This document shows positions 1 to 20,843 of a stretch of 20,843 nt of DNA, in pieces. The stretch covers positions 1-20,843 of the IMG/VR virus record IMGVR_UViG_3300025168_000843. One strand, given 5' to 3'. The notes beneath the pieces are model-generated. The model did no database searches and was not told the origin of the DNA. It worked only from the letters and a program-made list of their open reading frames with translations. The stretch's first letter is position 1. Every line of letters starts with the position of its first letter. The DNA comes from a virus. A program made the translations under genes and the position numbers.

Positions 1-12
1 CATACTTTTCAT
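1..12 (-). CDS. Possible start of the next gene, cut by the window edge
   Basis: An ATG overlaps the TGA stop of the 50-residue Cys-rich gene in the ATGA arrangement used elsewhere in this window. Only four codons (Met-Lys-Ser-Met) are visible, so nothing can be said about the product. By synteny the next genes should belong to the tail module. The start is an inference from the overlap pattern alone; the upstream ribosome-binding site is weak. Confidence 0.35.
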
Positions 13-161
13 GAGTCACACGACCCTTTATCCATACATTCAGCGCACTTGCTTTTGCCGCAGTTATCACAGCATTTTTTTGAGCGGCAATCTTTTTTGC
101 CACATTCATCGCAATCTTCGTCGCCTTTTATCATATTCCAACTTATTTCAAACGGATTCAT
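9..161 (-). CDS. Small Cys-rich zinc-ribbon-like protein with NPM-type N-terminus (50 aa)
   Basis: Direct translation gives 50 residues starting MNPFEISWNMIKGDEDCDEC and ending at TGA. It has eight cysteines in CxxC / CxxxxC arrangements (CDECGKKDC, CCDNCGKSKCAEC), which suggests one or two bound zinc ions. A strong site GAGGTGA stands five bases before the ATG and lies just after the TGA of the putative tail tube gene, so the two are probably co-translated. The first residues match the start of two other proteins here (starts at 3217 and 5150: NPM-x-x-AW-x-LLK), although the rest is unrelated. I do not recognise a family. The placement directly after the tail tube suggests a small tail or assembly factor, but that is inference. 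Confidence 0.75.
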   Translation of the reverse strand: MNPFEISWNMIKGDEDCDECGKKDCRSKKCCDNCGKSKCAECMDKGSCDS

Positions 162-171
162 TTCATTCACC

Positions 172-2106
172 TCACATATGTAAGAACGCGTCGTGTGAGA
201 TTACGCGAACATGCTTCGGCATAATCTTCAACTCGCTCTTGATAACACCCTTGTCTTCGGGGATAGGAAGCGGTGCTTCCGTGATAATGTAATCGTCAAC
301 GACAATGATAACCTCTTCGCGGTCAGTACCCGGACCAGCCTTCGTCAATGTGAGTGTGATAGGTTCAGTGAACGCGTGTGTTCTGTTGGTTCGGAACTCA
401 TGCCAAATCAACGGGTCGGATGCAATGACGCTCATACTCAACTCATATTCCATAGCCTTCTCAATCATAAGATTGGCATTGCGTGAGCCACCGAATGGTA
501 TTTGCTCAAGAGATTGACCAGCGGAGTTTCGCGATTCTGCTTGGCTGTTGCCGCGAATAGTGTAAATTGCTTCGGCGTTGTTGTTACCACTTAATGAGAA
601 GTTGGTGACTTGCGCGATGTTGATTCCAAATGAACTGATAACACCGTTGTAAAAGAAGAATGGCTTCTCCGTGTTTGGTGCGATACCAGCCTTCTTGCGG
701 TTAACAACGCTGTTAGCAGTATTCTCAAACATTCGATGTGCTGTGAATCTATCACCTTTGTTAGCAGGTGTGGTATCTTCAAGACGGCCTGTGTCAGTGT
801 AGCAGTAAAGTGCATCGAAGTTGATTGATAGTTTTACTTCTGCGTCTGCGTCTGCCGCGATAGAGAAGTCCTTGACTTTGCATCCTTTCCAAACGCGCGT
901 AAGTTGCTTGCTGTCGTTAGCGGAACCGGGCGCGGCTTCGTTAGCGAGAGCGTCAGTTGCGTTGCCGTTGTATGAACCAACATTGTGTGTTCGTATGCTG
1001 GATTCGATTGAAAAGGTTGGCAAGGTTGCACCGGAGAACAGAAGTCGTGATTGGCGGTTGGTGATTGTTCCGTAGTTGGCGGCGGTGGTGACGAAATCCG
1101 GTGAACCGTTACTTGAACCTGTATCATAGGCTACGCGCTTGAGTGTGTATCCTGTTGTATGACTGAATCCAACAGGGTCTTCAAGATGCAAGCGACGAGT
1201 TGTTGTGTCAACATAAAGAACTTGACGAATCTCGTTTCGTTCTGTGTTCTCCATATCTATACCAAGACCATCAGCACCCCATTCTTTTGATGCGGCGGCA
1301 GGTGTGTCTTTCGGGAATGCTGTGGCTGTGCTGTCCTTGATGATGATGTATTCACCAGCGGAGAGGTTAGAGAGTGTGCCTGTGTAGCCAACATAAGTGT
1401 CGCCAGCGGCGATGTCCAAGAATGATGTTGCAGTTGGGTCACCGGAGATGACTGCCGCAGGTTCGTCAATAACTTCGCGACCAAGTGCGTAATACAACCA
1501 GCGCGCGCTGTTCATCATTGTTTCAAGAGAACCGCCTTCATTGGAGAAGCGTTGAGGTTCTTGGATAACAACATCGCGGCCTACACCTACAATGTGAGCG
1601 CGTCGCACTTCCACTTTGGTTTCCGGTAGTCCAACAGTTGCGGCAAGACCGATAAATTGGTTAGTGAGGACTGATTCATCGGATGCTTTAGCACTCGCGT
1701 TGAAAGTGCTTCCTACATCAATTGTCGGTGTCCCCATTGTGTCAATGAGTAATTCATCACCGGATGCTGATGTGGTGCTTAGTTCTTTCATTGGTGGTGA
1801 AACTGTAATTGTGTCACCACTGTTCGCGACGATTGTATAAACATGGCCTTTGGTAGCGTTGTCATCAAGAGTGAAGTTACCACCACCAATAACGCGAAGT
1901 TGAGAACCAACAAGCATACCAGCAGGGTATCGCAAAAGTGAGCCGGATGAGAAGAAACCTTCCGTTCCTCCTGTGAAAGTGATTAAAGTGCCAGCGGCAT
2001 TTGTCGCGAAACGAAGTCCACCGAAGCCATCAAAGGCTAATGCTAATCCACATTCTTTACCGAATGTCACTTCGGATAGGTCGCCTTTATACACTGTTGA
2101 TGCCAT
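172..2106 (-). CDS. Putative tail tube (major tail) protein, enlarged (644 aa)
   Basis: This is a beta-rich, soluble protein with no signal peptide or membrane segment. The start (MASTVYKGDLSEVTFG) and the end (a region with PITLTLTKAG followed by a run of alternating hydrophobic strands and a basic end) resemble tail tube proteins of siphovirus and myovirus families. The gene follows the likely tail terminator, the normal place for the tube gene. Usual tube proteins have 150-350 residues, so this one is long. Around residues 20-110 it carries a Gly-rich beta module (VGSQLRVIGG ... TITVSPP), and residues roughly 215-330 hold a second beta-rich stretch, both probably surface insertions. ATG start with GGCGGAG upstream, 20 bases after the previous stop. 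An alternative is a tail sheath or a baseplate-like protein; I see no sheath hallmark. Confidence 0.6.
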   Translation of the reverse strand: MASTVYKGDLSEVTFGKECGLALAFDGFGGLRFATNAAGTLITFTGGTEGFFSSGSLLRYPAGMLVGSQLRVIGGGNFTLDDNATKGHVYTIVANSGDTITVSPPMKELSTTSASGDELLIDTMGTPTIDVGSTFNASAKASDESVLTNQFIGLAATVGLPETKVEVRRAHIVGVGRDVVIQEPQRFSNEGGSLETMMNSARWLYYALGREVIDEPAAVISGDPTATSFLDIAAGDTYVGYTGTLSNLSAGEYIIIKDSTATAFPKDTPAAASKEWGADGLGIDMENTERNEIRQVLYVDTTTRRLHLEDPVGFSHTTGYTLKRVAYDTGSSNGSPDFVTTAANYGTITNRQSRLLFSGATLPTFSIESSIRTHNVGSYNGNATDALANEAAPGSANDSKQLTRVWKGCKVKDFSIAADADAEVKLSINFDALYCYTDTGRLEDTTPANKGDRFTAHRMFENTANSVVNRKKAGIAPNTEKPFFFYNGVISSFGINIAQVTNFSLSGNNNAEAIYTIRGNSQAESRNSAGQSLEQIPFGGSRNANLMIEKAMEYELSMSVIASDPLIWHEFRTNRTHAFTEPITLTLTKAGPGTDREEVIIVVDDYIITEAPLPIPEDKGVIKSELKIMPKHVRVISHDAFLHM

Positions 2107-2126
2107 ATTATCTGCTCCGCCTTGTC

Positions 2127-2567
2127 CTACGCGATGAGTTCCGAGAATATCACTATTTCGACTTGGAAGGTCATGCGATGTAGCCTCTTCGTTCTATCCG
2201 AAAGGTCAGTTCTCATCTTATAGAGTAATCGGTCAAAATTGACTCCATCGCCCTTTCTTTTGCTGTGGATGATACGCCGAACCTCATCTTCAATCTTCAT
2301 AAGATGCTTTCTCCCACTCATTGTTCGCGCATCAACTGTTACATTGATTCGCGTATGGACAAAATCATAGAATACTTCGGGCTGTTCTTCGTTGTGAACA
2401 GTTTCGTAAAGAAGGATAGCGTCTTTGTTGGTGAGGTCAAGACGCTTACCGCGACCAGCCTCAACCGTAGTGATGTCTTCAACGATAGGTGTTCGCTGGT
2501 CTGTGTTACCGCGATTCCACCCATCGGTGAGAATACCTTTGATAAGTTCAACAGACTCAAGGGCCAA
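2127..2567 (-). CDS. Probable tail terminator / tail completion protein (146 aa)
   Basis: This is a compact alpha/beta protein. After an N-terminal helix (ESVELIKGIL) come a strand pair containing AILLYETVHNEE, a region rich in His, Thr and Val with the pattern YDFVHTRINVTVDART, a helix (MKIEDEVRRIIHSKR), and a last strand MTFQVEIVIFSE. That order (helix, strands, a mid-protein helix with RRI, terminal strand) is typical of gpU/gp17-type tail terminators and related neck proteins that cap the tube. The position between the adaptor genes and the tube gene fits. The start is TTG, preceded by GGGAGTGA, and overlaps the previous gene by 11 bases. The family call rests on synteny and secondary-structure pattern, not on a diagnostic motif. 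Confidence 0.55.
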   Translation of the reverse strand: MALESVELIKGILTDGWNRGNTDQRTPIVEDITTVEAGRGKRLDLTNKDAILLYETVHNEEQPEVFYDFVHTRINVTVDARTMSGRKHLMKIEDEVRRIIHSKRKGDGVNFDRLLYKMRTDLSDRTKRLHRMTFQVEIVIFSELIA

Positions 2568-2826
2568 TCAAGTCACTCCCTATGTTTGATTGTGCGCGAG
2601 CCTGTTTCTTCGCCATGTTGACTATTGCTTTGTATTCGGGGCTTGACTCATCCATCACTTTTCCACTCGCGTCAATCAACTTTCCGTCGCTAACTGCCGC
2701 GCCATAGTCAAGAGCGCACGCATCAAGGAAAACACGCCCACTGTCGCTAAACACGCTGTTCTCACGCGCTTGCTTGACAGGCTCCATCATAGCCTTCGCG
2801 ACGGCTTTCTTGATTACTTCTTTCAT
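2557..2826 (-). CDS. Small basic head-tail region protein, unknown (89 aa)
   Basis: Not recognised. It has an amphipathic basic N-terminus (MKEVIKKAVAKAMMEPVKQA), then a short mixed region (GRVFLDACALDYG), and a C-terminal helix rich in Lys, Ala and Gln (YKAIVNMAKKQARAQ). The site AGGTGAT lies three bases before the ATG and overlaps the previous gene's stop. It could be a head-closure or neck accessory factor, because it sits between adaptor and terminator, but at 89 residues it is short for HK97 gp10-type proteins. It overlaps the terminator gene by 11 bases, so the two are probably translated together. Confidence 0.65.
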   Translation of the reverse strand: MKEVIKKAVAKAMMEPVKQARENSVFSDSGRVFLDACALDYGAAVSDGKLIDASGKVMDESSPEYKAIVNMAKKQARAQSNIGSDLIGP

Positions 2827-2830
2827 AGTA

Positions 2831-3217: not shown

Positions 3218-3221
3218 ACTA

Positions 3222-4802: not shown

Positions 4803-4805
4803 ACA

Positions 4806-5416: not shown

Positions 5417-5426
5417 AGTATCACCG

Positions 5427-5591: not shown

Positions 5592-5602
5592 GGTGAATCA
5601 CC

Positions 5603-6201: not shown

Positions 6202-6243
6202 GTTTGCGCCTGTTTTGCGCGGACCTTTGTAGGTTATTGTAGG

Positions 6244-6743: not shown

Positions 6744-6754
6744 TTTCAATCACC

Positions 6755-7903
6755 TCATTGTAAGTCGCGGATAGAGCCGCTTGCACCAAAGAAAGAACAC
6801 CACATCTCGCCCATTGTTCGATAGAGTCCTTCTTGTCCAAGACGGTTAATCGCGAATGGGTCGCCGGTTTCGATACCGGATTCATAGTATTGTGTCGGGA
6901 TTGCAGTTTGGAACCACAAGTAATCCGTGTCGAGATAATACATACGAGATAGAGAACCTGCTCCATCTTGTGGCATATCCTTTGTTGGAATCATTGGCAC
7001 ACCGTTGTAGGTTGCGACGATGAAACCAGCCTCAAGACCGGGAACACCCTTTACACCGTTGTAGGTTGGAGTCACGCGCTTGCTGTCCATGAATCGCTGT
7101 TGGGATTGTAGGAGTTGCTGAACGCGCATCAAAGTGTCGTATCCAGTGAGCATAACCTTCGGGTTACCACCGCGAGTCCAAAGTTGTTGGAACAATCCAT
7201 CAAGTTGATTGAGGGATAGGTTGCGGTTGGTGGTTGAATCAGCGGAAACATCGACTTCCGCGCTGTGGAAGTCTGCTGTTCCGTCGCGGGTGATAGAGTA
7301 AATATCGTGGTCGGTGGTTGCACTGATGTGGTTTGTTCCTGTGGTCATCTTATCCGGGTCGGATGTAAGACGGTCAAGAGATTCAAAGTCGTTGCCAGCA
7401 GGTGTGTCAACATCTTCAAGCATCATTCGGTTGATATGTTCAGCGTGGTGCTTACCCATCTCTTCCTTTAGAACTTGGCGAACATCGCCCAGTCCGTCGT
7501 CCTTGTCGGACAAGAACATGCTAACTTCCGATAGGTCGAAAGTGTGCGCGACAGTCTTTGGCTTTGCGGCAACATGGAGGAAGTCGGGTCGGCTTGTGTC
7601 CGGTAGAGTTCCGTTTTCTGCAATTCCGCCACCCTTGTTGAAGTCAGCGCGACCAGTGAGGATACGCCATCCGCTTCTTTCCCACGGCTTCTTAGGTAGG
7701 ATAGAGAAGGCGTTGAACTCTTGGTTCAACTGTGACCATACTTTTCGTCCATAAATTGCTTGATAAGTTCCCGCGGTGGAGGACATCAAAGGCGCGTCTG
7801 CCTTGAGAATGTCACCCGCTCCGTAGGTGTATCCGGTTGAGGATGCGCCACCGTAGTAGTATCGCTCCATGTCTTGCACTGTTCTTACATAGTTTCTTGC
7901 CAT
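6755..7903 (-). CDS. Major capsid protein, HK97 fold (382 aa)
   Basis: It forms the icosahedral shell. The N-terminal arm is helical and aromatic (YVRTVQDMERYYYGG). The spine-like region follows, then a P-domain and A-domain with signatures of archaeal virus HK97-fold capsid proteins: VMLTGYDTLMRVQQLLQ, then GLEAGFIVATYNGVPMIPTK, and the C-terminal strand block (RMYYLDTDYLWFQTA ... LGQEGLYRTMGEMWCSFFG). It follows the prohead protease gene directly, overlapping by one base (TGATG). ATG 7903 is preferred to the in-frame TTG 7906 because GAGGCGAT lies five bases upstream. At 382 residues it is of normal length. No obvious protease cleavage site can be named from sequence alone. Confidence 0.85.
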   Translation of the reverse strand: MARNYVRTVQDMERYYYGGASSTGYTYGAGDILKADAPLMSSTAGTYQAIYGRKVWSQLNQEFNAFSILPKKPWERSGWRILTGRADFNKGGGIAENGTLPDTSRPDFLHVAAKPKTVAHTFDLSEVSMFLSDKDDGLGDVRQVLKEEMGKHHAEHINRMMLEDVDTPAGNDFESLDRLTSDPDKMTTGTNHISATTDHDIYSITRDGTADFHSAEVDVSADSTTNRNLSLNQLDGLFQQLWTRGGNPKVMLTGYDTLMRVQQLLQSQQRFMDSKRVTPTYNGVKGVPGLEAGFIVATYNGVPMIPTKDMPQDGAGSLSRMYYLDTDYLWFQTAIPTQYYESGIETGDPFAINRLGQEGLYRTMGEMWCSFFGASGSIRDLQ

Positions 7904-8778
7904 CAATAATCGCCTCCTGTCAACGCTTTACCAGCAAGTCGGTGAACATCGTCCCACGACATATCTGCTAATTCGGCGGTTTCGGGAATGGTAACTGTTG
8001 CTTGTCCAGCGGACTTTGCAATAGTGGTTGAGGTTGTAGCAACATTGTCGATTCGCTGGTTAAGGGCGATGACTGCTTTTTGTAGTTCAACCATTGGTCC
8101 GCGAGAATCAAAGTTAGCCTTTGCAACTGAATCTGCATCGCGCTTCTCTTCTTTCAAGAACCTGTTTGTGAATTGATTGTTAAGTTCGGACTTGAACTTT
8201 TGTTCTTGTGCCGCGGCTTTGAATACTTCATAAGCGGCTTCAACTTCACTTGATGAAACATTAGAAGCGTTGAGGTAATCACCCTTGATGACATTTTTGT
8301 TTCCGCTTGGTGCGGCTCCCATGTCCATCTTAGGTCGCTTACCGGAATCGTCTTCGCCAGCACCTTCAAGAGAACCTTGTCCGCGGTGGTCGTAGCCGGA
8401 TTCACCCGGTCCGTAGCCTTTGTTAAAGTGGTCGCGAGCGGCGTTCGGGTCGAACCCTGCGCTCTTCACGGTTGACTCTAACCAAGTCAAGTAGTCGGTC
8501 GTAATCATATCATCTGCTTTGTTCGTCATATCATCTTCTCCGTATGCCATTTCTTCCAAAGGTTCGTCATCTTCATCTTCATCTTCATCGTCGTCACCGA
8601 AAGGATTTTTGCTTTCCTTCTTTTTAGGTTTCGCGTCGAGCATGTCTTCGATGCCTTTCTCTTTGGATTCTTTGTCTTTCTTATCATCGAGTTTCTTGTC
8701 TTCTTCCTTGTCTTTATCGTCAAGTTTCTTAGACAGTCGTTCGAGAACGCTTTGCAGTTCATTCATTGGGTCGGTCAT
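7903..8778 (-). CDS. Possible internal-start scaffold protein (291 aa)
   Basis: Inside the protease gene, in the same frame, ATG 8778 (residue 179) comes three bases after GGAAATGAT, similar to the GGAGATGAT plus three bases used by the portal start. Translation from here would give a protein without the protease, beginning MTDPMNELQSVLERLSKKLD, the acidic scaffold-like part plus its C-terminus. Lambda (C/Nu3) and others make scaffold from an internal start in the protease gene, so the arrangement has precedent. The first residues align without gaps to the NPM-type heads of the small proteins (DPMNELQSVLERL against NPMNEAWILLKRF). This is inference; a mass-spectrum start peptide would decide. 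Confidence 0.35.
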   Translation of the reverse strand: MTDPMNELQSVLERLSKKLDDKDKEEDKKLDDKKDKESKEKGIEDMLDAKPKKKESKNPFGDDDEDEDEDDEPLEEMAYGEDDMTNKADDMITTDYLTWLESTVKSAGFDPNAARDHFNKGYGPGESGYDHRGQGSLEGAGEDDSGKRPKMDMGAAPSGNKNVIKGDYLNASNVSSSEVEAAYEVFKAAAQEQKFKSELNNQFTNRFLKEEKRDADSVAKANFDSRGPMVELQKAVIALNQRIDNVATTSTTIAKSAGQATVTIPETAELADMSWDDVHRLAGKALTGGDY

Positions 8779-9312
8779 TGTATCATTTCCTGTGTCTTCC
8801 TTGAGGATACGAAACTGCGCTTCGGGATTGATACCCTTTTCGCAAATCGTTACTTCATGGAGTTCCATGCGACGAATCTCGCGGTAATCTCCGCGTGTTT
8901 GGTCGCTCTTGTTGACTCTCTCAAAGGCTTGACCGCCGATTGAGAAAGACCGCAGGTTGCCCTTACGGATTTCGGATGCAACTTCGCGGGCTTTTTCGAT
9001 GTCCCCGCGTAGTTGAATGACTACGAACATTCCTGTGTCGTCAACTTCGGACTTCCAAAGACGACCACTTGAATCAGTGTAAGAAGGAATAACTGTTCCT
9101 ACTTGTATGTTAGAGTGTGCGAGTTGAACATTGCGGAAACCTTCTGCTTTCATGAAGCCACCAAAAGCATCTTTGAGAGCCGAGCGTGTGATTAAGTCAC
9201 CCTGCTTGTCAACCATTTCAACGGACGCATATCCAGCAACAATAAGGTCATCGCCCAAGCCCTTGAGAACAAGGGGATTGGATGAAACACTTGGAGCCGC
9301 GAGAATCGCCAT
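7903..9312 (-). CDS. Prohead protease fused to scaffold-like region (469 aa)
   Basis: Residues 1-170 form an HK97/XkdF-type prohead serine protease: AGYASVEMVDKQGD near the start, the His of NVQLAHSN (H66), and the Ser in LRSFSIGG (S122 or S124), a common pattern for the His-Ser pair. The next part (about 180-270) is extremely charged (Lys/Asp/Glu runs, for example DDDEDEDEDD), followed by a Gly-rich linker and helical segments with EVEAAYEVFKAAAQEQ, as in scaffold domains. The enzyme should cleave the scaffold and the capsid protein during head maturation. The gene lies immediately before the capsid gene, as in HK97-type systems. ATG start with only a weak upstream site. An internal start at 8778 may give scaffold alone. 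Confidence 0.85.
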   Translation of the reverse strand: MAILAAPSVSSNPLVLKGLGDDLIVAGYASVEMVDKQGDLITRSALKDAFGGFMKAEGFRNVQLAHSNIQVGTVIPSYTDSSGRLWKSEVDDTGMFVVIQLRGDIEKAREVASEIRKGNLRSFSIGGQAFERVNKSDQTRGDYREIRRMELHEVTICEKGINPEAQFRILKEDTGNDTMTDPMNELQSVLERLSKKLDDKDKEEDKKLDDKKDKESKEKGIEDMLDAKPKKKESKNPFGDDDEDEDEDDEPLEEMAYGEDDMTNKADDMITTDYLTWLESTVKSAGFDPNAARDHFNKGYGPGESGYDHRGQGSLEGAGEDDSGKRPKMDMGAAPSGNKNVIKGDYLNASNVSSSEVEAAYEVFKAAAQEQKFKSELNNQFTNRFLKEEKRDADSVAKANFDSRGPMVELQKAVIALNQRIDNVATTSTTIAKSAGQATVTIPETAELADMSWDDVHRLAGKALTGGDY

Positions 9313-9329
9313 TGCAACCCAACTCTAAC

Positions 9330-12300
9330 TCATGCTATATCAAAGGAACTCTTCTCGACCGCGATGACACCATCGTCTTCAAGACGAGCAGTTTCTCCTT
9401 GACTCGTCCGCAGTGTCTTGGTTTTCTTCTCGGTTGCTGGTTTTAGTTCGTCATTCCTTCGCGCTTGAGGGTCGAAGTCGGGCATGGTATCATCGCGGAT
9501 GTTTTCGGTAGGGCCGCGTGGTGAGTGGTCAAGACTGGCATACCCTATACCAAGTCCTTGAACACCTGTGCTGGTAATTTTTTCTTTAGAGAGATGTTCC
9601 AAACCGCGCTCCATCAATTCAAGTCCACGCTTCATGACCTCTTCTTCTTCTTCAAGAATCTTCTTTGGTTTCTTAATATGACCTGCTGGTGGTTCGGGGT
9701 TTACTTCATCATATTCGGGTTCATCGGACTCTTCTCTCTTTAGTAACCAAATAGCCTTAGCCTCCCAATACGCTTCTTGGTCGTTGGCTAACTTGACGAG
9801 ATACTCATTACCCCATATAGAAGATTGAGGTTCAACATACCAAAACTCTTCTTCTTTATGCGTTTTGCAAATGACCTCATCATCAAACGCGGGGAACATG
9901 ATTGTGATTTTTCCTTTCTTCATATTGACTTGTTGAGGAATGTGATGGTCACCTGCTAATATCGCAAGTGTCTCAACACTGTTCGCGGCGAGCGGTTCAG
10001 CGTCAGTTAACTTGGCTGAACGAATGCGATACACTGGATGTTCACCTTTAGACGCACTTACACCTGTGCAACGAGCAGTAGCAAAGTCACCAACATTGAA
10101 TCCACGCGGCCCTTTTGCGCTACCTACATTCATGTAGTGTTCTTTACCAACTTGTTGTGCGCGCTTACCGTAGTGTTCGGGGTTCATCAGTGGTCCAACA
10201 CCGATAGTGTAGTTTTTACCAGCGCGTGAAAGTATGATGACATCAACCATTTTTTCTTTACTCAACAGCACCCATTTAGGGTGACGAGGTTCACCTTTCA
10301 TGTATGTAGCGTTGGCATCGCGCAAAAGAATATCCATATTATTTTCGTTTTGTAATCCATCAACCGCAACGGATAACCCTTCATCATCACTACGCTTAGT
10401 GTTAATTGGTTCGGGCATTTTAATGTGTTCACTTGATTCGTATTGAGCGCGAAGATGACGAATACGGTCTTTCGTTGGCATATTGTGTGTGTCTTCGTCT
10501 GCTGTTTTCAACAAATCAATCACAGTCATTATTCCGTCATGAAGTATAGCGTGAACTACAAAGTCCTTCTCATACACCTTGTTGACTTCTTCGTTGAATA
10601 CATTATCCAACTTGATTTCACCATCAGCACCGTAAGCAGTCATCTTTTTACCTTTCTTTGTCGCGATGATATGTTCACCTTGAGGATAGAGGCTGATGAC
10701 CCAATCACCAACAAATCCGCGCAAATGCTTCAAGTCTTCTAAATCAAAGATGCGATGCATGAACTTGACTGGTTGTGGTTTTCCATCGTCTTTGATGATG
10801 AGTGTGTCATCAAGCGCGACATCAAGAAGATGTGAAGAGTGAGCAAAGAGTGAAGGGTCTGTGGATTGGATTACTCCCGGTGTCAATGGCATGTCCGGTT
10901 GCATAGCCATTGTTTGATTGATGGCTTGACCTACACGCGTATTTGGGTTTGGTTCGTTATCGGAGTGTTGATACCCAGCCATGTGAGTTGTAGCGGTTGA
11001 TGGGTCGAGGGGTTTGAGTGCAGGGTTGACGCGCCTCATCATGTTGTGTAAAAATACCATCTGTTGCGGTGGGGGAGAATTATACACATGATTGTCTTTG
11101 TCTTCAAAATACATTTCACCATCAGCCATCGCGCCCGGTCTTACAACAAATGGTGTAGGTGTTCCGAAGCCGTAGTTAAACTTCTTTTCCGCGCTTGTGT
11201 GAATCGGCACAACAGGAGCGTTGTTGAAATGAGTTCCGCCTATCGCAGTTGACTCTTCTGTTGATGATGACTTGTCAAATATCTGTGTTGATGTAACCCC
11301 ATCAAGCAAAGAAGCAATGTTTTGCAGACTTGATGGTTTGTTGAAATCCATTAAGCGTTTTGCTTTTTTCGCTAAATTACCTTTGAAACTTTGCAGTTTC
11401 TTTGTATCTAATCCAACATCGCTCCCTTCTCTTGTTTGCTTCACCGTGTTATGAAGCAACTTTAGTATGAGTTCGCGCTCTTTGTTCATGTTGATAGGAT
11501 TGCCTTTTTTATCAAGAATGCTTTCTCCACCACTTCTTGTCATGTCTTGACCATGAAATAAGCCACCATCATTGAAAACAAAATTATTCCCACCCCTCTT
11601 AGGAATGTTGATGATGTCATATACTTCACTTTTTTCTTCACCTCGTATAGCGCGACCGTCTTTCGATACTGGGTGATATCTCGCTTTGAATGCTTCATTG
11701 AAACTTATCTGTTGTTGTCCCGCGGCTTTCTTCACGCTACTTATTATCGAGTCAAACATTTTTATTTCTTCTTCGTCAATATCGTTTGAGTCTTTGGCGA
11801 GGTGTGACATCACCTTATGTCCACTTGGTTGAACACCGCCGAATATACTGTCTTTCATTTTACTGGCTTGATAAGAAGAGTCTTGGTGTGTATCGCGCTT
11901 GACTTTGATGTCGGCTAATGCTTCAACTTCGTCGGCTGATAAGTCAAATGATGCTTTCTTACCACCCAAATGAAGGTTGTTTTTACCGCTAAACAATCTT
12001 CTCTTTTCATCCGGTTCCATATACAGTATTTGTTCCGCGAGTTTTATTGTGTAAGCAGTAGCCGCGTGTGCTTCGTTGTTCTCTTTGGTATAAACATCGG
12101 GGTATAATTTTTCTATCGCGGGTTGCAGTGCTTTGTATATTTTTTCAACACCGCGCAAAGTATCAAGGTGGTTGGATATTCGTTGACCGGAATGCTTCAA
12201 CTTCACTTCACCACCGTCGAGAGGTGGAGCGGCGCGGCGAATCTCCATCATTCTTTTCTCAATCATCTCTTGACTGCCTTCGTCGTTGTTTTTTCGAGCG

Positions 12301-15299
12301 ATTTGTAATGCACTCCCTAACATCGTTTGATGTTGCGAAGCGAGATAAGAAGGGGTTGGTGCTATGACAAGAGCCGACAACGCAGGGTTTTCTTCGTCAC
12401 CATGTTGACGATAAGCAACAACTTTACCTTTGTCATCTTTGTAGTTTTTGAGCATTTTTTCAAGTTCCTCATGACGATTACCCATAGCGGTATTATCACC
12501 TGCTTGTTTTGCTTGAATGTATTCTTGGTCAAGACCTTTCAGTTCTTGTAGCAGTCTGCCTCGCGAACGAATGTTTTGCACTTGCGCGTCGGGTAATTTG
12601 TATGTGTCATTGAAGTTGAGCATGTTGTAATTGTCTAAATCTTCTTTGTGATATATCGCGAATTGAGTTGGTTCTTCAACACCTTCGGTAATCTCCCTCA
12701 TCATATCTCGACCCGTTCTGCCACCATAGCCTATGATGTCCTTGTGATGCGAACCGTCTTTGATAGCCTGTAATGGGTTATCAATTTCACCATCCATGAG
12801 TTTGTTAAAGAACTCCAAAGCGGCATCATCGTGTTGAGTCAACGGATTGTGCAGACCGAGTAACCCCGCGTCTATCATCATCTTGTCTTCTTGAGAGTGG
12901 TTGTCTTTGGTGATGCCGAAATCGCCTTTACCACCCTTTATCTGCATCCTATCAAACATTCTTCTCTTACCTTTACTTTGTGCGTTGATTCTCGATTTGC
13001 GCGTAGTCAGCATTGGGGTATGAAGTGCGGTTTCTGTGCTTTGAACAGGTAATCCATCGAGAGCAGTGAACCCAACATGGTCTTTCATGTTAACACCGAG
13101 ATAGTTACCGTGTGCCATCATCCATGAGTTCAAGCCTCTTGTCGCGGGAGTCATGGGTGAAGGCATACCTTCTGTGTAGTCTTCTAATTGCTCTTGAGGG
13201 CTTCCTAAAGAGTCGGGGTTATTTTCTGCCGCGTAAGGATTAACTATACCTTCTGTTACATCTTGAGCGGTTGTTTCTTTACGCGGCATAGGGAGTTCAA
13301 CTACTTTCCCGTTATCAAAGTCAGCCAAGTATTTTTCTTCGTCTTCGTTGCCGCGCAATGCTCTTTGTAAATCAACTCTTAGTTGACCTTCTTCGTTTTC
13401 TTTTGCTGGGTCGAATACATTCTTTTGCTCAACTGCTGGGCGCGACCCACCACCTTCTCTCTCGGCTCGCGTCGGAAGCATGAACCTTCTTTCTTGTAAG
13501 GGCGTGTAAAGCATATTAGGCATAGACTCTTGATAATGCACACCGAAGTCAGCACTTTCTCCATCCGCGTTCCCTCTCCTGTTACCAACCCCCCGCATCA
13601 CAATACCAAGTGGGCTTCTGTCGCTGTGAACGGTTGGTTCTTTCGTCATATCAAACTCTTCGTCGTCTGTGCTATGAGTGTGAGTGTATCCTTGCAATGT
13701 TTGTCGCATCAAGTCACTGTATTCCTTTGTTCCGTATTGAATTAAACTTTGTTCAATGATGTCTTTGAGTTCGTCTTTTTCAAACAATTGATGGTTCACT
13801 AAGTCTTTCATGTTGGGTAAATCCGATGTCATGTAAATGAAAGTGCCATGTTGATTCTCGTCTATGTGTGGATATTGAGGGTTGTCATCGTCGGGTATGA
13901 CATCACAATCACCGTGTTTATCCGTGTATCGTTTAACCATTTCATTAAAGTTAACGCCTTCTAAAGAGCGTTGCAGGGTATCATCATCAAGCGCGCCCCA
14001 TTTGTTTTCTTCCAACTTTTCTCTCACATCTTGGTGCTTCTCGTCAATGTTTTTCTTTGCTTCGCGTGCGGCTTTTTCTGTGAAGCGATTTGGTAAAACA
14101 TGGTTCATACCGTTTCTGTTTGAGCCACCCGCGTAAAGAGTATTCAACATGTTATCCATGAGATAAGCGTGGTTAGCCATGTAACCTCGCGCACCGGGTC
14201 CGAGAATGTTATTGATGACCGAATCATCTATTGAACCGTCCTCTTGAACACCACCACCTGTTTCCAGCATCCACTTTTTGATTTTGTAAATGTCATCATA
14301 GGGAAGCATAGAGATACCAAGACGGTGAACATCATCACCAACGCGACCAAAGTTTCTTTGCTCTTTGACTGGTTTTCTTCTTGTGTTGTTGTATCCGTCT
14401 GCCAATTCGCGCAGTTGTTGGATTGGAGAGTTGTCACCATCTCCTTCGGTGATTGGCATACCGTCGTCATCGAATAATAAATCGAATATCTCTTCGCGAG
14501 GAACGCCTTCGTTTTCCCAATTTTTGACGCGCATAAAATGTTCATCCAACATAGAATGAGCAAGTAAGGGGTTACCTTTACCGTAGCGTTCACCAAAAGC
14601 CTCGATGAAGTCTTTTTTACCGCGGTCATAAATTGTCATCATAGTGACATTGTTACCTCTCCAATTACCAAACATGTGTTGTTGTTTAAGGACAGGGTGC
14701 AAACCTTCTGCTGTTTTTATCATCGCCTTGTTGAGTTTTTCAGCATTCTTACCTTTGTTACCGTAAAGGTATCTGTTGAGTTGTTGCCACAGTGGTTTTT
14801 CACCATAAGCGACTTCACCTTTGCGCGGAGGGTGAAGGTTGAGTGTTTTGAACTTGGAGTGTTGACCAACAATGTCATCTCCGCGTTCAGCGATGTTTGG
14901 TATAGTATCTTCAAAACGGCGACCAATAGCCAATCTCACCATTGCATCAATTGATTTTTCATCGCCAGTCATCATTGCTTTAGTCCAATCATCGCTATGA
15001 AACAAAGGTCTTGCCTTATGATGGCGCGACGGTGCGGGTTCATGGATTGTCGAACCACCGGAGAAAATGCGCTCCATACCTCGACTTGAAGGATTCCTAA
15101 CTTGAAGTTCGGGTTGTAATTCATCAATATATTTTTGAGCGTTTTTCTTAAAGAGGATTTGCGTATATCCTTGATTCTCCAAGTTGTTTGCACTTAGCAG
15201 AACATTGACTGCTTCATCGCGTGCATCGTGTTTGTTGATTAAAGCATGAGTAAACTCACTAACTACGCGTTGGTGATATTGCAATGCATCTTCGCGCAC
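9330..15299 (-). CDS. Giant head-module protein with a degenerate DNA-ligase-like C-terminal region (1989 aa)
   Basis: It fills 6 kb between the portal-proximal genes and the protease, where minor capsid or injected proteins are usually coded. It is hydrophilic throughout, rich in His, Met, Asn and charged residues, with no signal peptide or membrane helix. Residues about 1510-1780 resemble an ATP-dependent DNA ligase nucleotidyltransferase plus OB fold in order: a KxDG-like place reading GFVGDWVIS, a strand with DFVVHAIL, a D-ILLRDANATYMKGEP segment, WVLLSKEKMVDVIIL, then an OB-type VGSAKGPRGFNVGDFATARC. The catalytic Lys and the WxKxK lysine appear absent, so it is probably not an active ligase. 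The C-terminal 150 residues hold an E/K-rich coil and a disordered tail. GTG start after GAGGTGGTGA. The rest is unrecognised; an internal virion or DNA-binding role is inferred. Confidence 0.75.
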   Translation of the reverse strand: MREDALQYHQRVVSEFTHALINKHDARDEAVNVLLSANNLENQGYTQILFKKNAQKYIDELQPELQVRNPSSRGMERIFSGGSTIHEPAPSRHHKARPLFHSDDWTKAMMTGDEKSIDAMVRLAIGRRFEDTIPNIAERGDDIVGQHSKFKTLNLHPPRKGEVAYGEKPLWQQLNRYLYGNKGKNAEKLNKAMIKTAEGLHPVLKQQHMFGNWRGNNVTMMTIYDRGKKDFIEAFGERYGKGNPLLAHSMLDEHFMRVKNWENEGVPREEIFDLLFDDDGMPITEGDGDNSPIQQLRELADGYNNTRRKPVKEQRNFGRVGDDVHRLGISMLPYDDIYKIKKWMLETGGGVQEDGSIDDSVINNILGPGARGYMANHAYLMDNMLNTLYAGGSNRNGMNHVLPNRFTEKAAREAKKNIDEKHQDVREKLEENKWGALDDDTLQRSLEGVNFNEMVKRYTDKHGDCDVIPDDDNPQYPHIDENQHGTFIYMTSDLPNMKDLVNHQLFEKDELKDIIEQSLIQYGTKEYSDLMRQTLQGYTHTHSTDDEEFDMTKEPTVHSDRSPLGIVMRGVGNRRGNADGESADFGVHYQESMPNMLYTPLQERRFMLPTRAEREGGGSRPAVEQKNVFDPAKENEEGQLRVDLQRALRGNEDEEKYLADFDNGKVVELPMPRKETTAQDVTEGIVNPYAAENNPDSLGSPQEQLEDYTEGMPSPMTPATRGLNSWMMAHGNYLGVNMKDHVGFTALDGLPVQSTETALHTPMLTTRKSRINAQSKGKRRMFDRMQIKGGKGDFGITKDNHSQEDKMMIDAGLLGLHNPLTQHDDAALEFFNKLMDGEIDNPLQAIKDGSHHKDIIGYGGRTGRDMMREITEGVEEPTQFAIYHKEDLDNYNMLNFNDTYKLPDAQVQNIRSRGRLLQELKGLDQEYIQAKQAGDNTAMGNRHEELEKMLKNYKDDKGKVVAYRQHGDEENPALSALVIAPTPSYLASQHQTMLGSALQIARKNNDEGSQEMIEKRMMEIRRAAPPLDGGEVKLKHSGQRISNHLDTLRGVEKIYKALQPAIEKLYPDVYTKENNEAHAATAYTIKLAEQILYMEPDEKRRLFSGKNNLHLGGKKASFDLSADEVEALADIKVKRDTHQDSSYQASKMKDSIFGGVQPSGHKVMSHLAKDSNDIDEEEIKMFDSIISSVKKAAGQQQISFNEAFKARYHPVSKDGRAIRGEEKSEVYDIINIPKRGGNNFVFNDGGLFHGQDMTRSGGESILDKKGNPINMNKERELILKLLHNTVKQTREGSDVGLDTKKLQSFKGNLAKKAKRLMDFNKPSSLQNIASLLDGVTSTQIFDKSSSTEESTAIGGTHFNNAPVVPIHTSAEKKFNYGFGTPTPFVVRPGAMADGEMYFEDKDNHVYNSPPPQQMVFLHNMMRRVNPALKPLDPSTATTHMAGYQHSDNEPNPNTRVGQAINQTMAMQPDMPLTPGVIQSTDPSLFAHSSHLLDVALDDTLIIKDDGKPQPVKFMHRIFDLEDLKHLRGFVGDWVISLYPQGEHIIATKKGKKMTAYGADGEIKLDNVFNEEVNKVYEKDFVVHAILHDGIMTVIDLLKTADEDTHNMPTKDRIRHLRAQYESSEHIKMPEPINTKRSDDEGLSVAVDGLQNENNMDILLRDANATYMKGEPRHPKWVLLSKEKMVDVIILSRAGKNYTIGVGPLMNPEHYGKRAQQVGKEHYMNVGSAKGPRGFNVGDFATARCTGVSASKGEHPVYRIRSAKLTDAEPLAANSVETLAILAGDHHIPQQVNMKKGKITIMFPAFDDEVICKTHKEEEFWYVEPQSSIWGNEYLVKLANDQEAYWEAKAIWLLKREESDEPEYDEVNPEPPAGHIKKPKKILEEEEEVMKRGLELMERGLEHLSKEKITSTGVQGLGIGYASLDHSPRGPTENIRDDTMPDFDPQARRNDELKPATEKKTKTLRTSQGETARLEDDGVIAVEKSSFDIA

Positions 15300-15310
15300 A
15301 CTTCACCACC

Positions 15311-16370: not shown

Positions 16371-16395
16371 GCCCGCGCCGCTCTTGAATGTATCG

Positions 16396-18252
16396 CTAAA
16401 ACCCGCTTTCTTTGTTCTTACTCGTAGGGTCTTGCGCGGCTTGAATACTATCGAGTGCTTGCTCTAAAGGAGTCTTGTCTTTTCCGCGTTGATTTTTCTT
16501 TGATGATGGCGCACCCGATTGGTGAGTTTCCGAACTGATAGGTGCTGGCCCATTGTCGCGTTGTCCAGTGCCTTCACCAAGACCAACTGCGCCGCCTTTC
16601 TCCATCATCATAATTTGACCGCCTCCCGGTGGTAGGGACGCTCCCCCAGCCGGTGGAGAAGCCCCTGCCCCCGGCGGCATCATCGCGCCCCCACCCTGTG
16701 GAGGTATCCCGCCGCCCCCCGGCGGCATAGGTGGAGGCATACCACCACCCGGTGGCATTCCACCCGGTGGCATTCCGCCCGGTGGCATTCCGCCACCTGC
16801 GGCATTAGGGTCTTGAGGTTGAGGTTCGGGTTTTGTGTAAGTGAATCGTATATCACTACCACCGTCTTCTGTCAATTCGGGCTGGAAACCAAGTTGTTGC
16901 ATACGCTGTGCGATGTTGACTTCTTGTTCATCGCGTCGTAGTCTTGTGATTTCATCCTCTTCTTCATTCGGATAAAGAGTCAAAGTCCAGTCTTCAACAC
17001 CCATTTGGTCAAGCATTCTCGGAAACAACTCGCGTGAATACAACTTCTGTCCCGACTCAACCGCGCGATTCGTGACAAGGATTTGCATTCCTTCGTTGTT
17101 CAATCCACCGGACTTACCGCTATCCATCATGAACACATTGGATACGCCATAGAAAGCCGCTATACGCATTCGGATTTCATCGCGAACTTGTGCATATTGC
17201 ATCTCATCAAGGCTATCCATGAAACGAACAAACTCGACCTTACCGCGCCCCGATGCTGATTCAACACCAACTTTCGGAATGTAGTGAGGGTCGCGCTCCA
17301 TTTTTTCTTCTGCTCCTTTCCAAAAAGCCGCTGTTGATTGAATGTTATCAGTAGTGATTGCGAGAACACCGCGTGGTATTCTTCTCTTTTGATATGCGAG
17401 GTAAATGTAATTGTCCATTGCCGTGAGTGATTGTGCTTGTCGCCACATACTGGCGACAGGTGAGCGACCATACAACTTCGATGGGTTGAACTTTGATGTG
17501 TGCAATACTTCTCCTTCAATGTAATACTGCGTCTTACCACTACCTGCTGTGTTAATGTAGTGAACATCTTGGAGAGGTAACCCACACCCATCCACATCAC
17601 ATTCGCTATGGTCGCCGTTGTGAGGATATGTTTTATCTCGATGTATTGGACACAGGAGGTATCGCCCTCCGCGCTTACCTGCTTTATCCGCAACAATACG
17701 CATGAAGGTTGGGTCACCGCGAACCAATTCTTTGACGCGGAAAAACTCAATTTCACCCGTCTTTGGGTCGAGGAAATATTCTTTGATGAGTAATAAGAAA
17801 GCATCATCAACAATATCTAAATCCCATTCAATCTCTTTCATCACTTCAATGAATGATTGGTCCATGCTGTTGCGCTCTTTCATTAGCCAACGCGGGTAAA
17901 TGATTTGGTCAGCGTCGGGGCTATCGAAGTCATCATTCCCGCATATTCGACATTCTTCAACAGTATCGTGTTGATATTCTTCATTACAGTTAGTGCATTT
18001 CTTGTGAAACTTCTTTTCCCAATAATACCCGCGACGAAAAATCTCTTGGCATAATGTGTTGATGGTTGTTCGGAGGATGATTGATTCTTGAACTGTTGCG
18101 TAAAGTGCCGGTATTGATACACCTTGAACGAGAACGGGTTCTTGAATACCCGTCTTCCACAACGGCATCATTGGTTCGGGTGTTGTTCGCCTACTGAATG
18201 GCTTCGTTAATCTTGATAAGAAACGCCCTACTAAGCCTTTTTCTTCTGCCAT
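16396..18252 (-). CDS. Portal protein with two zinc-binding insertions and Pro/Gly/Met-rich tail (618 aa)
   Basis: It forms the dodecameric DNA entry ring. The core reads as a typical portal: an N-terminal helix with YATVQESIILRTTINTLCQE, the WDLDIVDDAFLLLIKEYF wing region, RSPVASMWRQAQSLTAMDNY in the crown-stem region, and FYGVSNVFMMDSG near residue 370. Two unusual cysteine clusters lie within the wing: C86-x2-C89 with C101-x2-C104 (a zinc ribbon), and C201-x2-H204 with C218-x4-C223. Zinc ribbons in portals recall some archaeal virus portals. The C-terminal 150 residues are Pro/Gly/Met-rich repeats (GGMPP units) and a charged end, probably disordered. ATG start overlaps the previous stop (TAATG) after GGAGATGAT. 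Confidence 0.85.
   Translation of the reverse strand: MAEEKGLVGRFLSRLTKPFSRRTTPEPMMPLWKTGIQEPVLVQGVSIPALYATVQESIILRTTINTLCQEIFRRGYYWEKKFHKKCTNCNEEYQHDTVEECRICGNDDFDSPDADQIIYPRWLMKERNSMDQSFIEVMKEIEWDLDIVDDAFLLLIKEYFLDPKTGEIEFFRVKELVRGDPTFMRIVADKAGKRGGRYLLCPIHRDKTYPHNGDHSECDVDGCGLPLQDVHYINTAGSGKTQYYIEGEVLHTSKFNPSKLYGRSPVASMWRQAQSLTAMDNYIYLAYQKRRIPRGVLAITTDNIQSTAAFWKGAEEKMERDPHYIPKVGVESASGRGKVEFVRFMDSLDEMQYAQVRDEIRMRIAAFYGVSNVFMMDSGKSGGLNNEGMQILVTNRAVESGQKLYSRELFPRMLDQMGVEDWTLTLYPNEEEDEITRLRRDEQEVNIAQRMQQLGFQPELTEDGGSDIRFTYTKPEPQPQDPNAAGGGMPPGGMPPGGMPPGGGMPPPMPPGGGGIPPQGGGAMMPPGAGASPPAGGASLPPGGGQIMMMEKGGAVGLGEGTGQRDNGPAPISSETHQSGAPSSKKNQRGKDKTPLEQALDSIQAAQDPTSKNKESGF
16616..16802 (-). repeat. 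Low-complexity repeat coding Pro-Gly-Met-rich portal tail
   Basis: Repeated 15-base units such as cggtggcattccgcc on the plus strand (read as GGMPP) occur in tandem near 16752-16797 and continue as imperfect Gly/Pro-rich versions to about 16620. The segment is much richer in G and C than the surroundings. Such tracts commonly vary in length by slippage. Confidence 0.75.
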
Positions 18253-19643
18253 TACATCATCTCCACAAGTCGGTTCGCATCGTCAAGAAGACGAAGGGTT
18301 TCACCGTCCCGACTAAACATGGCACGAACTCCCACCTCATCAATGTTCCACTCCTTCAAGAGTTCTTCTCGCTTGTCGGGAACATCTTTCCAATTGAGCC
18401 ATTTAACAATGCGGTAAAGTTCATCGCGGCGTGATTTGATGATGTCAGTTTTACGACCGCGCATATCGAGTAGTTCAACGACTGCACCAGCCTGTCCTTT
18501 CTTCATGCGGAGATGTCGAGTAATACCTTTCATCAATTTACGCAAATCATTTTCACTGTAAAATTGTAGTCGGTGTTGTGTTCGTCTGCTGTTTTTATGA
18601 ATCTTCAAATCAGTTTGGAGAACGCCACAGCCAAGTGCTTTGTGCAACTGTTCGCAGTGTAACTTACCTCTTTCACCTGTCGCAATAAATCCCGCTCTTG
18701 GTTCAAGACGCTTGGTTATAGTGATGTATCCGTCAGCGTCGAGGAACCCAGCGGCGTAAGCCCACACATCTTTGAAAATCACACTGTTGTCGCGGACAAG
18801 ACCCCACCCAGCACCAATTTTCTCTATGTCATATTCGACACCATGCATCTTGAACAAAGAGGATAATTTTTGAGTTGTTAAATGAGTTGTTGCTTGCATA
18901 CTGTTGAAGACTTCTTTACTTGAAAGAGGGCCGCGCTCTTCAAGGATACTCGCGGCTTTCGCGAGGAAAATTGCATCGGTCTTTTTGATGTTGTCAATAG
19001 AATGAAGTGAGTTCCTCCACTCTTTCTTCGCATTCTTTTTGACTTGTTGAGCATCAACCCATAGTTGTCGCTGATTGTCGTCAAACTCACCTTCGATGAG
19101 AAGCAATTTGCTGATGGTATCGTTGGCTTTTTCCCATTGAACACACGCTCTTCTTAATGCATACTCGCGAGATATACCATGTTTGCGCAATGCTTGGAGG
19201 TCGCGGTCGCTAATGCCTAAATTGCGAACTGTTGCATCATGCTTACCAATCCACTCTATTGATTGTAAAGTTGCTTCAACTTCTTGTTTCTTTGCGATGC
19301 GTATAGCGTCGATGGCTTCGTCGATAGCATCACGCATACTTTTGTTAACACGACGCGCTAATCGTAAGTCTTTCACTAAGTCACCTGCGTTGCGACCAAA
19401 CATGCTGTTAAACCAGTCACCGTTAGGTCGGGAACGCTTGAGTTGTTGAGCAACTTGTTGAGCCATCTCTTTCTTCTCTTCTTCTTCTTCAATCTCGTTT
19501 GGTTTAGGTGGTGTTGGGTTTGCGTTCGCTGTTCCCTGTCCTTGTTGGATAGGTTTAGGTGCATCACCAAAAGACGCTCCTTGAATTGTATTTTTCAAAA
19601 TAGCATCTATGAATGCTGTTTCGTCGGACAAATCAATTTTCAA
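18252..19643 (-). CDS. Winged-helix plus LAGLIDADG-like protein next to the portal gene (463 aa)
   Basis: Residues 1-60 are low complexity (QGQGTANANPTPPKPNE, then an E-rich run). Residues 60-220 are helical and basic with LARRVNKSMRDAIDEAIDAI. A winged-helix-like segment follows (about 225-285: ILEERGPLSSKEVFNSM with AGWGLV at its end). Then comes a single LAGLIDADG-type motif at about 296-306 (YAAGFLDADGYI), followed by strand-helix blocks with GCGVLQTDLKIHKNSRRTQHR, typical of homing-endonuclease or WhiA-like domains that bind DNA. The start is TTG with GGTGA eight bases upstream, overlapping the previous gene. It may be a DNA-binding packaging or regulatory factor, or a homing endonuclease captured into the head cluster; the sequence cannot decide. 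No self-splicing intron or intein context is seen. Confidence 0.65.
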   Translation of the reverse strand: MKIDLSDETAFIDAILKNTIQGASFGDAPKPIQQGQGTANANPTPPKPNEIEEEEEKKEMAQQVAQQLKRSRPNGDWFNSMFGRNAGDLVKDLRLARRVNKSMRDAIDEAIDAIRIAKKQEVEATLQSIEWIGKHDATVRNLGISDRDLQALRKHGISREYALRRACVQWEKANDTISKLLLIEGEFDDNQRQLWVDAQQVKKNAKKEWRNSLHSIDNIKKTDAIFLAKAASILEERGPLSSKEVFNSMQATTHLTTQKLSSLFKMHGVEYDIEKIGAGWGLVRDNSVIFKDVWAYAAGFLDADGYITITKRLEPRAGFIATGERGKLHCEQLHKALGCGVLQTDLKIHKNSRRTQHRLQFYSENDLRKLMKGITRHLRMKKGQAGAVVELLDMRGRKTDIIKSRRDELYRIVKWLNWKDVPDKREELLKEWNIDEVGVRAMFSRDGETLRLLDDANRLVEMM

Positions 19644-19779
19644 CGCGGTTCACCTTTCTCTTATTCCAAGCCATTATTTGCGGACTACCATTTTTAACCC
19701 AACACTTTTTACAAAATCCAAAAGGATATAACTTATCTGCTGTGTAGCAACAAGTGTCATACACAACAGACTTTCCCAT
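19633..19779 (-). CDS. Small Cys-containing protein (48 aa)
   Basis: Found by translation of an apparently empty stretch. It begins MGKSVVYDTCCYTADKLYPF, with CKKC a little later (four Cys in CC and CxxC pairs, a zinc knuckle-like arrangement), then a basic end (AWNKRKVNRVEN). The ATG overlaps the TAA of the previous gene (TAATG), and the site GAGGTGG is nine bases upstream. The TGA end overlaps the TTG-started next gene, so the ORF fits the operon exactly. Function unknown; zinc binding is inferred. Confidence 0.7.
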   Translation of the reverse strand: MGKSVVYDTCCYTADKLYPFGFCKKCWVKNGSPQIMAWNKRKVNRVEN

Positions 19780-20456
19780 TAACAATTCCACCTCTTCAAA
19801 GACGCGCCTTTAGGAGTTAACTTACCACCCTTACTCGTTGCACCTTTCATTCCACCCATCCGCGCGCAAAAAGACTTTCTACGCTTGGCCGACTTACTAC
19901 CGGGCTTGAGTGAACTTGGTTTTTTGGTGACAGGAGGTTTGAGATTTGCACCTGTTTTGCGTTTAGCGGCGGCTCGACCCTTCGCGTTCAAGCCACCTTT
20001 CTTACTGTGCTTGTTTGGATTGTAACCATGAAACGGTTTGCTTTTCCTTTTTGCTTTGAGAATAGTTGTTGCTATTTCAAACGGTGAACAGCAATCACAA
20101 AATGACACGCTTTTCGCGATGTCTTCATCATTCATCATTGCTAATTCTTCTGCTGTTATTGGTTCGTGCATTATGTATTCGTAGTTCATCTTAACCACCG
20201 TAGGCTTACCACCCACACCTTGTTTCTTACTGCGCTTTCTTTTTGTAGCCGCGCGTTTTTGACCCGACGACATAGAGCCGCTGGTCTTTGGAGTCTTACT
20301 TGTGACTTTGACGGAGGGGCGGCACTTTGGATACCCCTTAGAAGACTTCTTGGCTTTGCTACGCCCACACGGAGGATGCTTGCCATCCTTACCTGTGCGC
20401 GATACATCCACCCACTTCTCCTTGAACCATCGGTTCAAGTTTTTCTCAACTGTCAT
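19779..20456 (-). CDS. Two-domain basic protein: DUF5872-like N-terminus, DUF6321-like C-terminus (225 aa)
   Basis: Residues 1-60 (MTVEKNLNRWFKEKWVDVSR, then HPPCGRSKAK and YPKCRPSV) resemble a marine virus domain that I recall as DUF5872. Residues 155-225 (GLNAKGRAAAKRKTG, then SKSAKRRKSFCARMGGM and the end SLKRWNC) resemble DUF6321-type short proteins of marine phages. Both are usually separate small proteins in my memory, so the fusion is notable. Residues 90-150 add an acidic helix with ITAEELAMMNDEDIA and a Cys cluster (FCDCC). The protein is very basic, rich in Lys, Arg, Ser and Gly, which suits DNA binding. Start overlaps the previous gene by ATGA. Domain names are from memory and function is unknown. 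Confidence 0.65.
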   Translation of the reverse strand: MTVEKNLNRWFKEKWVDVSRTGKDGKHPPCGRSKAKKSSKGYPKCRPSVKVTSKTPKTSGSMSSGQKRAATKRKRSKKQGVGGKPTVVKMNYEYIMHEPITAEELAMMNDEDIAKSVSFCDCCSPFEIATTILKAKRKSKPFHGYNPNKHSKKGGLNAKGRAAAKRKTGANLKPPVTKKPSSLKPGSKSAKRRKSFCARMGGMKGATSKGGKLTPKGASLKRWNC

Positions 20457-20617
20457 ACCACGCGCACCATCTTTTTCAAAGTAGTTTTTTGTTTATCCAT
20501 CAAAGCGTAGCATGGACATTTAGGAGATTTAGCAGAACATTGATTCCCTTGAACCATGCAAACGCAGGGTGTTTTCTTTGTTCCACCACAACAGCATTTG
20601 TCTTTTTTGAGTTTCAT
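20453..20617 (-). CDS. Small Cys-rich protein (54 aa)
   Basis: Direct translation gives a protein beginning MKLKKDKCCCGGTKKTPCVC that continues to a basic end (KKMVRVV). It has eight cysteines (C8, C9, C10, C18, C20, C27, C34 and C36), consistent with one or two zinc sites or a disulfide knot. The start overlaps the previous gene's stop in ATGA and its own stop overlaps the next start in ATGA, so it fits the operon to the base. A run of A in the upstream context leaves the ribosome-binding site weak; translational coupling probably compensates. Function unknown. Confidence 0.7.
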   Translation of the reverse strand: MKLKKDKCCCGGTKKTPCVCMVQGNQCSAKSPKCPCYALMDKQKTTLKKMVRVV

Positions 20618-20811
20618 TTTTTCTTCCCCTTTTTCTTACCTGCGCCTATTTTGCCTCGACAGACCTGCACAGCATACCCGTTCGCATACGCGCTTGGGTA
20701 AACTTTGAACTTACGCTTCGCCGCCGCTTTACCTTTAGGGCATAGTTTCTTCTCAAGGTAGCCAAAGGCCGCTTCGCCGCCTACGCATAAATCGCAATTA
20801 CAATTAGTCAA
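20614..20811 (-). CDS. Small Lys-rich 'PSAYAN' protein of marine viruses (65 aa)
   Basis: The start is TTG overlapping the upstream TGA (TTGA). Residues 1-12 contain a Cys cluster (CNCDLC), and the centre has KFKVYPSAYANGYAVQVC, a motif I recall from many small proteins of marine viruses and giant viruses. The C-terminus is a Lys-rich tail (KIGAGKKKGKKK). The basic tail suggests nucleic-acid or membrane contact; the true function is not known to me. It is the first complete gene in a run of three basic or Cys-rich small genes, which ends with the DUF5872/DUF6321-like gene. Confidence 0.7.
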   Translation of the reverse strand: MTNCNCDLCVGGEAAFGYLEKKLCPKGKAAAKRKFKVYPSAYANGYAVQVCRGKIGAGKKKGKKK

Positions 20812-20843
20812 TCTAACAACCCATCCATTATTTCATCTAAGTC
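20808..20843 (-). CDS. 3' end of an upstream gene
   Basis: The last eleven codons read DLDEIMDGLLD followed by TGA, overlapping the TTG start of the next gene. Only this acidic C-terminus lies in the window. By synteny it could belong to the packaging module, for example the terminase, but eleven residues cannot show that. Confidence 0.5.
   Translation of the reverse strand, partial: DLDEIMDGLLD

Follow-up and report, generated by a model that had tools for sequence, protein, structure and literature searches.

Missing GATC, AGCT and other enzyme-recognised words in a probable magrovirus fragment and its relatives

Avoiding the sites that restriction enzymes recognise is an established viral strategy. 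A survey of prokaryotic viruses names GATC and CAGAG as avoided sites; every one of 46 phages tested from hosts with the enzyme avoids GATC, and phages also avoid CAGAG, a known type III site (PMC6286503). For archaeal tailed viruses, a second study describes sites as being either purged or methylated and reports that viruses without Dam lack GATC (PMC8651126). The HF1-group haloviruses (HF1, HF2 and HRTV-7; PMC7230728) are, like the virus considered here, archaeal tailed viruses with a complete loss of GATC and CTAG. HRTV-7 also lacks AGCT, and the group is without many 6-base palindromes, which has been attributed to host restriction (PMC7230728). Here we describe a broader loss of this kind in IMG/VR virus record IMGVR_UViG_3300025168_000843, positions 1 to 20,843, which we refer to as the window. 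Judged by the similarity of its genes, the window belongs to a magrovirus, one of the tailed double-stranded DNA viruses of marine Poseidoniales archaea, and is a fragment of its genome.

Our word counts are exact and cover the whole window (20,843 nt, 46.1% guanine plus cytosine). GATC, AGCT, ACGT and CTAG each have a count of zero, and there is a single GTAC at 326-329, which is missing from the closest relatives (loci L082 and L002-L003). Composition alone gives an expectation of 78 for each of these five words, and a second-order Markov model gives 86 for GATC, 57 for AGCT, 34 for ACGT, 26 for CTAG and 58 for GTAC. Other palindromes are present, with 85 copies of CATG, 78 of TGCA, 60 of TCGA and 46 of CCGG. 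The original prediction, made from the letters of the window, had listed the same four absences and the single GTAC, had put the compositional expectation at about 80 of each, had stated that palindromes are not avoided in general, and had proposed palindrome counts with a Markov model as a check. All of this agrees with the exact counts, which lie far below expectation. Its list was too short, as it overlooked the losses of GCWGC, YCWGR, RAATTY, CAGAG, CTCAG and GTCTC.

We then compared the counts with 300 synonymous-codon permutations of the 6,662 codons in all 20 called genes, which preserve both the proteins and the codon usage. Under this null we would expect 62.8 GATC, 68.0 AGCT, 60.7 ACGT, 26.8 CTAG and 46.3 GTAC, and none of the 300 permutations came near zero; CATG, TGCA and CCGG are at the level of the null. 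Five of the overlooked words are also at zero: GCWGC against a null of 37.9, YCWGR against 99.8 (and its subset CCWGG against 19.9), RAATTY against 27.1, CAGAG (CAGAG/CTCTG) against 24.2 and CTCAG (CTCAG/CTGAG) against 21.4. GTCTC has one copy against a null of 27.5. This only GTCTC/GAGAC site is at 9970-9974 on the plus strand, inside the gene of a 1989-amino-acid protein that holds none of the fully absent words. Over the whole window (1-20843), nine words or word pairs are absent and two, GTAC and GTCTC, are single, and many 6-base palindromes are at zero as well. At least ten short enzyme-recognised words have been purged while the proteins stayed unchanged. The permutation rules out codon usage and protein composition as the cause. 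General palindrome avoidance is ruled out too, because CATG, TGCA, CCGG and TCGA are kept and asymmetric words are also lost.

One word goes the other way. CGCG is over-represented in the window, at 179 copies against a synonymous null of 88. It is at about 2-4 times the compositional expectation in relatives of the window's clade, but a clade further away (for example L120-L133) has only about 0.2-0.3 times the expectation, and the word is depleted in most Poseidoniales samples.

The avoided words have the form of enzyme recognition sites. When we pooled the 34 loci that avoid RAATTY, the four RAATTY forms had a total of zero, and the 12 other NAATTN forms had 54-225 copies each. The 30 GCWGC-avoiding loci together have 2 copies of GCWGC against 1,690 of GCSGC. 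In the 29 loci that avoid YCWGR, we counted 14 copies of the four YCAGR words together, against hundreds for most of the neighbouring NCAGN words. CCWGG is avoided in 59 of 70 loci, with CCSGG retained, and the asymmetric words CAGAG, CTCAG and GTCTC are lost in the same manner. Sharp edges of this kind, in degenerate and asymmetric words, are characteristic of restriction enzymes, and mutation bias or DNA structure would hardly produce them. We considered whether YCWGR is an established restriction specificity and rejected this; the word occurs in two papers on MspJI, one of which presents it as off-target recognition by a CCWGG methylase.

We next compared the window with 160 related loci (2.25 Mb) from many samples, some of which overlap on one contig. 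Together they hold a single GATC, which is 4 bases away from the end of its contig, and a single AGCT. Other losses are lineage by lineage, including those of GCWGC and RAATTY; ACGT is at zero in 90 of the loci, CTAG in 95, GTAC in 80 and TCGA in 40. The losses extend over whole genomes: a 103 kb relative (G001) has no GATC (386 expected), AGCT (306), ACGT (335), TCGA (438) or GCWGC (221), and is also without dozens of 6-base words. A 107 kb relative (G002) avoids far fewer words than the 103 kb one. As a separate observation, G002 (L171-L173) has genes for a GmrSD_N protein and for a fragment of a C5 methylase.

Both GATC and AGCT are missing throughout a capsid tree of 70 loci, on which the other commonly scored words have 3-15 changes each; this is a quick tree of relatives that are not independent of one another, so the change counts are approximate. 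There are 36 distinct avoidance profiles among the 70 loci. Against relatives that are 88-92% identical in nucleotides, 2-8 RAATTY sites could be aligned per relative and all of them are gone from the window, which retains most of the CATG, TGCA and CGCG sites. Since RAATTY differs at this level of identity while the loss of GATC and AGCT is group-wide, part of the list is ancient and part is recent. The long history with restricting hosts that the original prediction proposed is therefore not uniform: it fits the group-wide losses of GATC and AGCT, while part of the list, as RAATTY shows, turns over quickly. Its idea of a fingerprint stands, and the lists, which differ between related viruses, are much richer than five tetramers.

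We believe that selection by many host restriction systems is very probably the best explanation for the loss of these sites. Host type II enzymes, along with some type III or IIG enzymes, would cut unmethylated sites in incoming viral DNA, and viral lineages that repeatedly meet such hosts would fix changes, most of them synonymous, by which the sites disappear. The systems that cut the viral DNA would be those of Poseidoniales, with each missing word standing for one past or present enzyme. We favor purging because the losses are independent of protein and codon usage, have an enzyme-like form and turn over between lineages, no recognisable viral methylase that could protect the sites instead was found in 22 long relatives apart from one C5 fragment, and the hosts have patchy type II systems. 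Several restriction systems had already been proposed as the source of selection, and the enzyme-like words, which differ between relatives and match the kinds of type II systems found in Poseidoniales, support that proposal.

For the hosts, a Marine Group II 16S probe led us to 67 genomes, 36 of which we examined for methylases, and we searched for enzyme families over 194 Poseidoniales genomes. Methylases are patchy in the 36 genomes, with the N6/N4 type in 20, C5 in 12 and D12 in 7. MvaI cuts CCWGG, and the MvaI/BcnI family is found in 2 of the 194 genomes, with a linked methylase in one (G177, where an N6/N4-type methylase adjoins the endonuclease). In the single-cell genome AG-447-I14, the neighbour of a C5 methylase is an endonuclease of the LlaMI/MvaI type. 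Two other single-cell genomes, AG-461-G23 and AG-404-K16, have D12 methylases beside a DUF6996/6997 protein, and the methylase of AG-461-G23 matches the Dam family with a score of 279 bits. The DUF6996/DUF6997 protein (L280 625-1404; L281 635-1402) is, by its position next to these methylases, a candidate GATC endonuclease family. The hosts are depleted in GATC and AGCT too, which are the two lowest palindromes in 3 of 5 Poseidoniales genomes sampled.

Several results weigh against host restriction as the cause. Dam-family genes are in 7 of the 194 genomes (less than 4%) while GATC is lost in every magrovirus, an MjaI-type (CTAG) endonuclease is in none of the 194, and we identified no AGCT enzyme. 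Individual matches between enzymes and words were mostly not made, and incomplete metagenome-assembled genomes may hide restriction genes. We searched the 194 Poseidoniales genomes for the portal, and the only matches are weak ones in its repetitive C-terminal part.

The rarity of the Dam family raises the question of whether ordinary linked type II systems are what acts against GATC and AGCT. The pressure on these two words could come from another sequence-specific defence, such as methyl-dependent type IV/Mrr enzymes, Dnd-Pbe phosphorothioation, or a dispersed endonuclease together with conserved orphan methylases. The universal loss of both words fits such a defence, and so do reports from other archaea. 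The marine thaumarchaeote Ca. Nitrosomarinus has more than 99% of its GATC and AGCT sites methylated (PMC10050889), and a Nitrosoarchaeum bin methylates both words with no linked endonuclease (PMC6329791), so marking of both words may be common among marine archaea. In many Poseidoniaceae there is a conserved methylase gene of the SPPY type (cytosine-N4-like; L258 1255-2211, with equivalents in L250-L263) with no visible nuclease, and in several of them it is beside a prolidase-like gene. Archaeal Dnd-Pbe recognises GATC, and one marine group II/III archaeon has this system (PMC6459918). On contig C24 of the Poseidoniales genome G073, a DndC-like gene and the gene of a Dam-family methylase are neighbours (L429 5765-6892 and 4656-5669), possibly a GATC phosphorothioation locus. 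However, DndC is in 1 of the 194 genomes, and defences other than type II leave RAATTY, GCWGC, CCWGG and other words unexplained. As an account of the GATC and AGCT pressure, we consider such a defence unlikely. We also put forward, tentatively and as a possibility that we would not favor, a combined scheme in which almost all Poseidoniales, and perhaps other marine archaea, share a defence that reads the methylation state of GATC and AGCT through conserved orphan-type methylases rather than linked type II systems and accounts for the total loss of both words, while the other words, including YCWGR, record turnover in host specificities, some of them undescribed.

The nucleases might instead be encoded by the virus or its relatives. 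They would destroy host DNA at specific sites, and the viral genome would lack these words for self-protection, as happens in some chloroviruses and in phages that have restriction enzymes of their own. Magroviruses do encode several nucleases (HNH, PD-(D/E)XK and ERCC4), restriction enzyme-like nucleases appear in their International Committee on Taxonomy of Viruses (ICTV) profile (PMC12999244), and G002 carries GmrSD_N and HNH proteins. However, at least ten unrelated words would demand equally many viral enzymes, there are no matching endonuclease families among the scanned open reading frames of G001 and G002, and the host genomes are only mildly depleted, with hundreds of sites remaining. 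In 22 long relatives, many of which are themselves fragments, we found no PF01555 (N6/N4) or PF02086 (D12) methylase and one fragment of PF00145 (C5), in G002. The viral methylases with matching endonucleases of a chlorovirus-like system were thus not found in these relatives and the G001 and G002 families, and we regard viral self-protection as very improbable.

As a control, we counted the same words in 80 HTVC010P-like pelagiphage contigs, many of them from the same IMG metagenomes. GATC is at 1.30 times and AGCT at 1.48 times expectation in these contigs, and the HTVC010P-like pelagiphages (L331-L411), which are SAR11 phages, have no GGCC in 636 kb and nearly no CGCG or GCGC. This answers the concern about an artefact and gives a different missing set for a different virus group; the same depletion in unrelated viruses of the same sample, which the original prediction had named as a possible refutation, was not seen. 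Assembly or sample artefact is ruled out on this basis. Composition, codon usage, mutation bias and artefact have no strong point for them beyond an unusual composition (over-represented CGCG and GCGC), and they can be dismissed, as the synonymous null contradicts the first two, the sharp R/Y/W boundaries contradict the third, and the pelagiphage contigs, together with contigs from many samples that are alike within a lineage and unlike from one lineage to another, contradict the last.

If host restriction is the cause, the words that a virus has fully lost would be a record of its hosts' enzymes that can be read from sequence at single-base resolution, as with RAATTY against NAATTN. For Poseidoniales, which like their viruses are uncultured, the profiles would predict enzyme specificities. 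Profiles of close viruses would show how fast host restriction repertoires change, and they could sharpen the matching of marine viruses to hosts.

All of the large genes in the window are on the minus strand. They encode a tail tube-like protein (172-2106; Phage_tube_2, Pfam PF18906, 28.4 bits), an SU10/HVTV-1-like major capsid protein (6755-7906; phrog_24667, E=9e-59), a head maturation protease (7903-9312; Peptidase_S78, by PHROG and Pfam), and the 1989-amino-acid virion-module protein (9330-15299), which was taken from the open reading frame list, has no Pfam hit and makes up about 29% of the window. These are followed by a portal protein (16396-18252; phrog_18178, E=1e-73, about 31% identity to halovirus portals), and beside it a protein with a C-terminal HNH endonuclease-like domain (18252-19643; phrog_5046, E=1e-8, amino acids 294-397). 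A DUF5872 and DUF6321 protein (19779-20456, minus strand, by Pfam) shares DUF5872 with the 103 kb relative.

IMG/VR contains hundreds of contigs closely related to the window. The window is a 20.8 kb piece of the virion module, and is hence without replication-module genes to compare with Magrovirales, which are Poseidoniales-associated viruses with PolB, a clamp loader, a chaperonin and a terminase (PMC12999244, PMC10768690). Magrovirus genomes are 90-110 kb long, and their replication and virion modules are opposed to each other. Both of the relatives longer than 100 kb, G001 and G002, encode PolB, an AAA clamp loader, a chaperonin and a terminase, and it is this published gene set that points to the window being a magrovirus fragment. 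The host is probably a member of Poseidoniales, given the similarity to magroviruses and the published host links of that group.

Among 50,697 phage records, the only isolates matched by the capsid are Druskaviridae (HCTV-1/-5/-16 and HVTV-1/-2, about 34% identity) and methanogen-associated viruses, and the portal matches only the same two groups. The nearest isolates by portal and capsid are the Druskaviridae HCTV-5 and HVTV-1, each of which has no GATC in the 50 kb examined and strongly depleted CTAG. They retain AGCT, ACGT, GTAC and TCGA. HVTV-1 (KC117377, L413) combines its GATC loss with QueC/QueD and preQ0-reductase genes of the deazaguanine pathway and an N6-adenine methylase, while the 22 long relatives of the window gave no N6/N4 or D12 methylase; its mix of defences thus differs from that of magroviruses. 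Compared to the HF1 group, the window comes from another virus group and habitat, it has lost asymmetric sites and the words GCWGC, YCWGR and RAATTY in addition to five tetramers, and magrovirus lists differ between close relatives. One magrovirus diversity paper does not mention restriction, methyltransferases or palindromes, and an earlier description may exist. The available sections of PMC6286503 and PMC8651126 describe the same strategy, and they do not describe site avoidance in magroviruses, its breadth or the group-wide loss of GATC and AGCT. What is new here is this group-wide loss, the breadth of the list, the inferred word YCWGR and the quick turnover.

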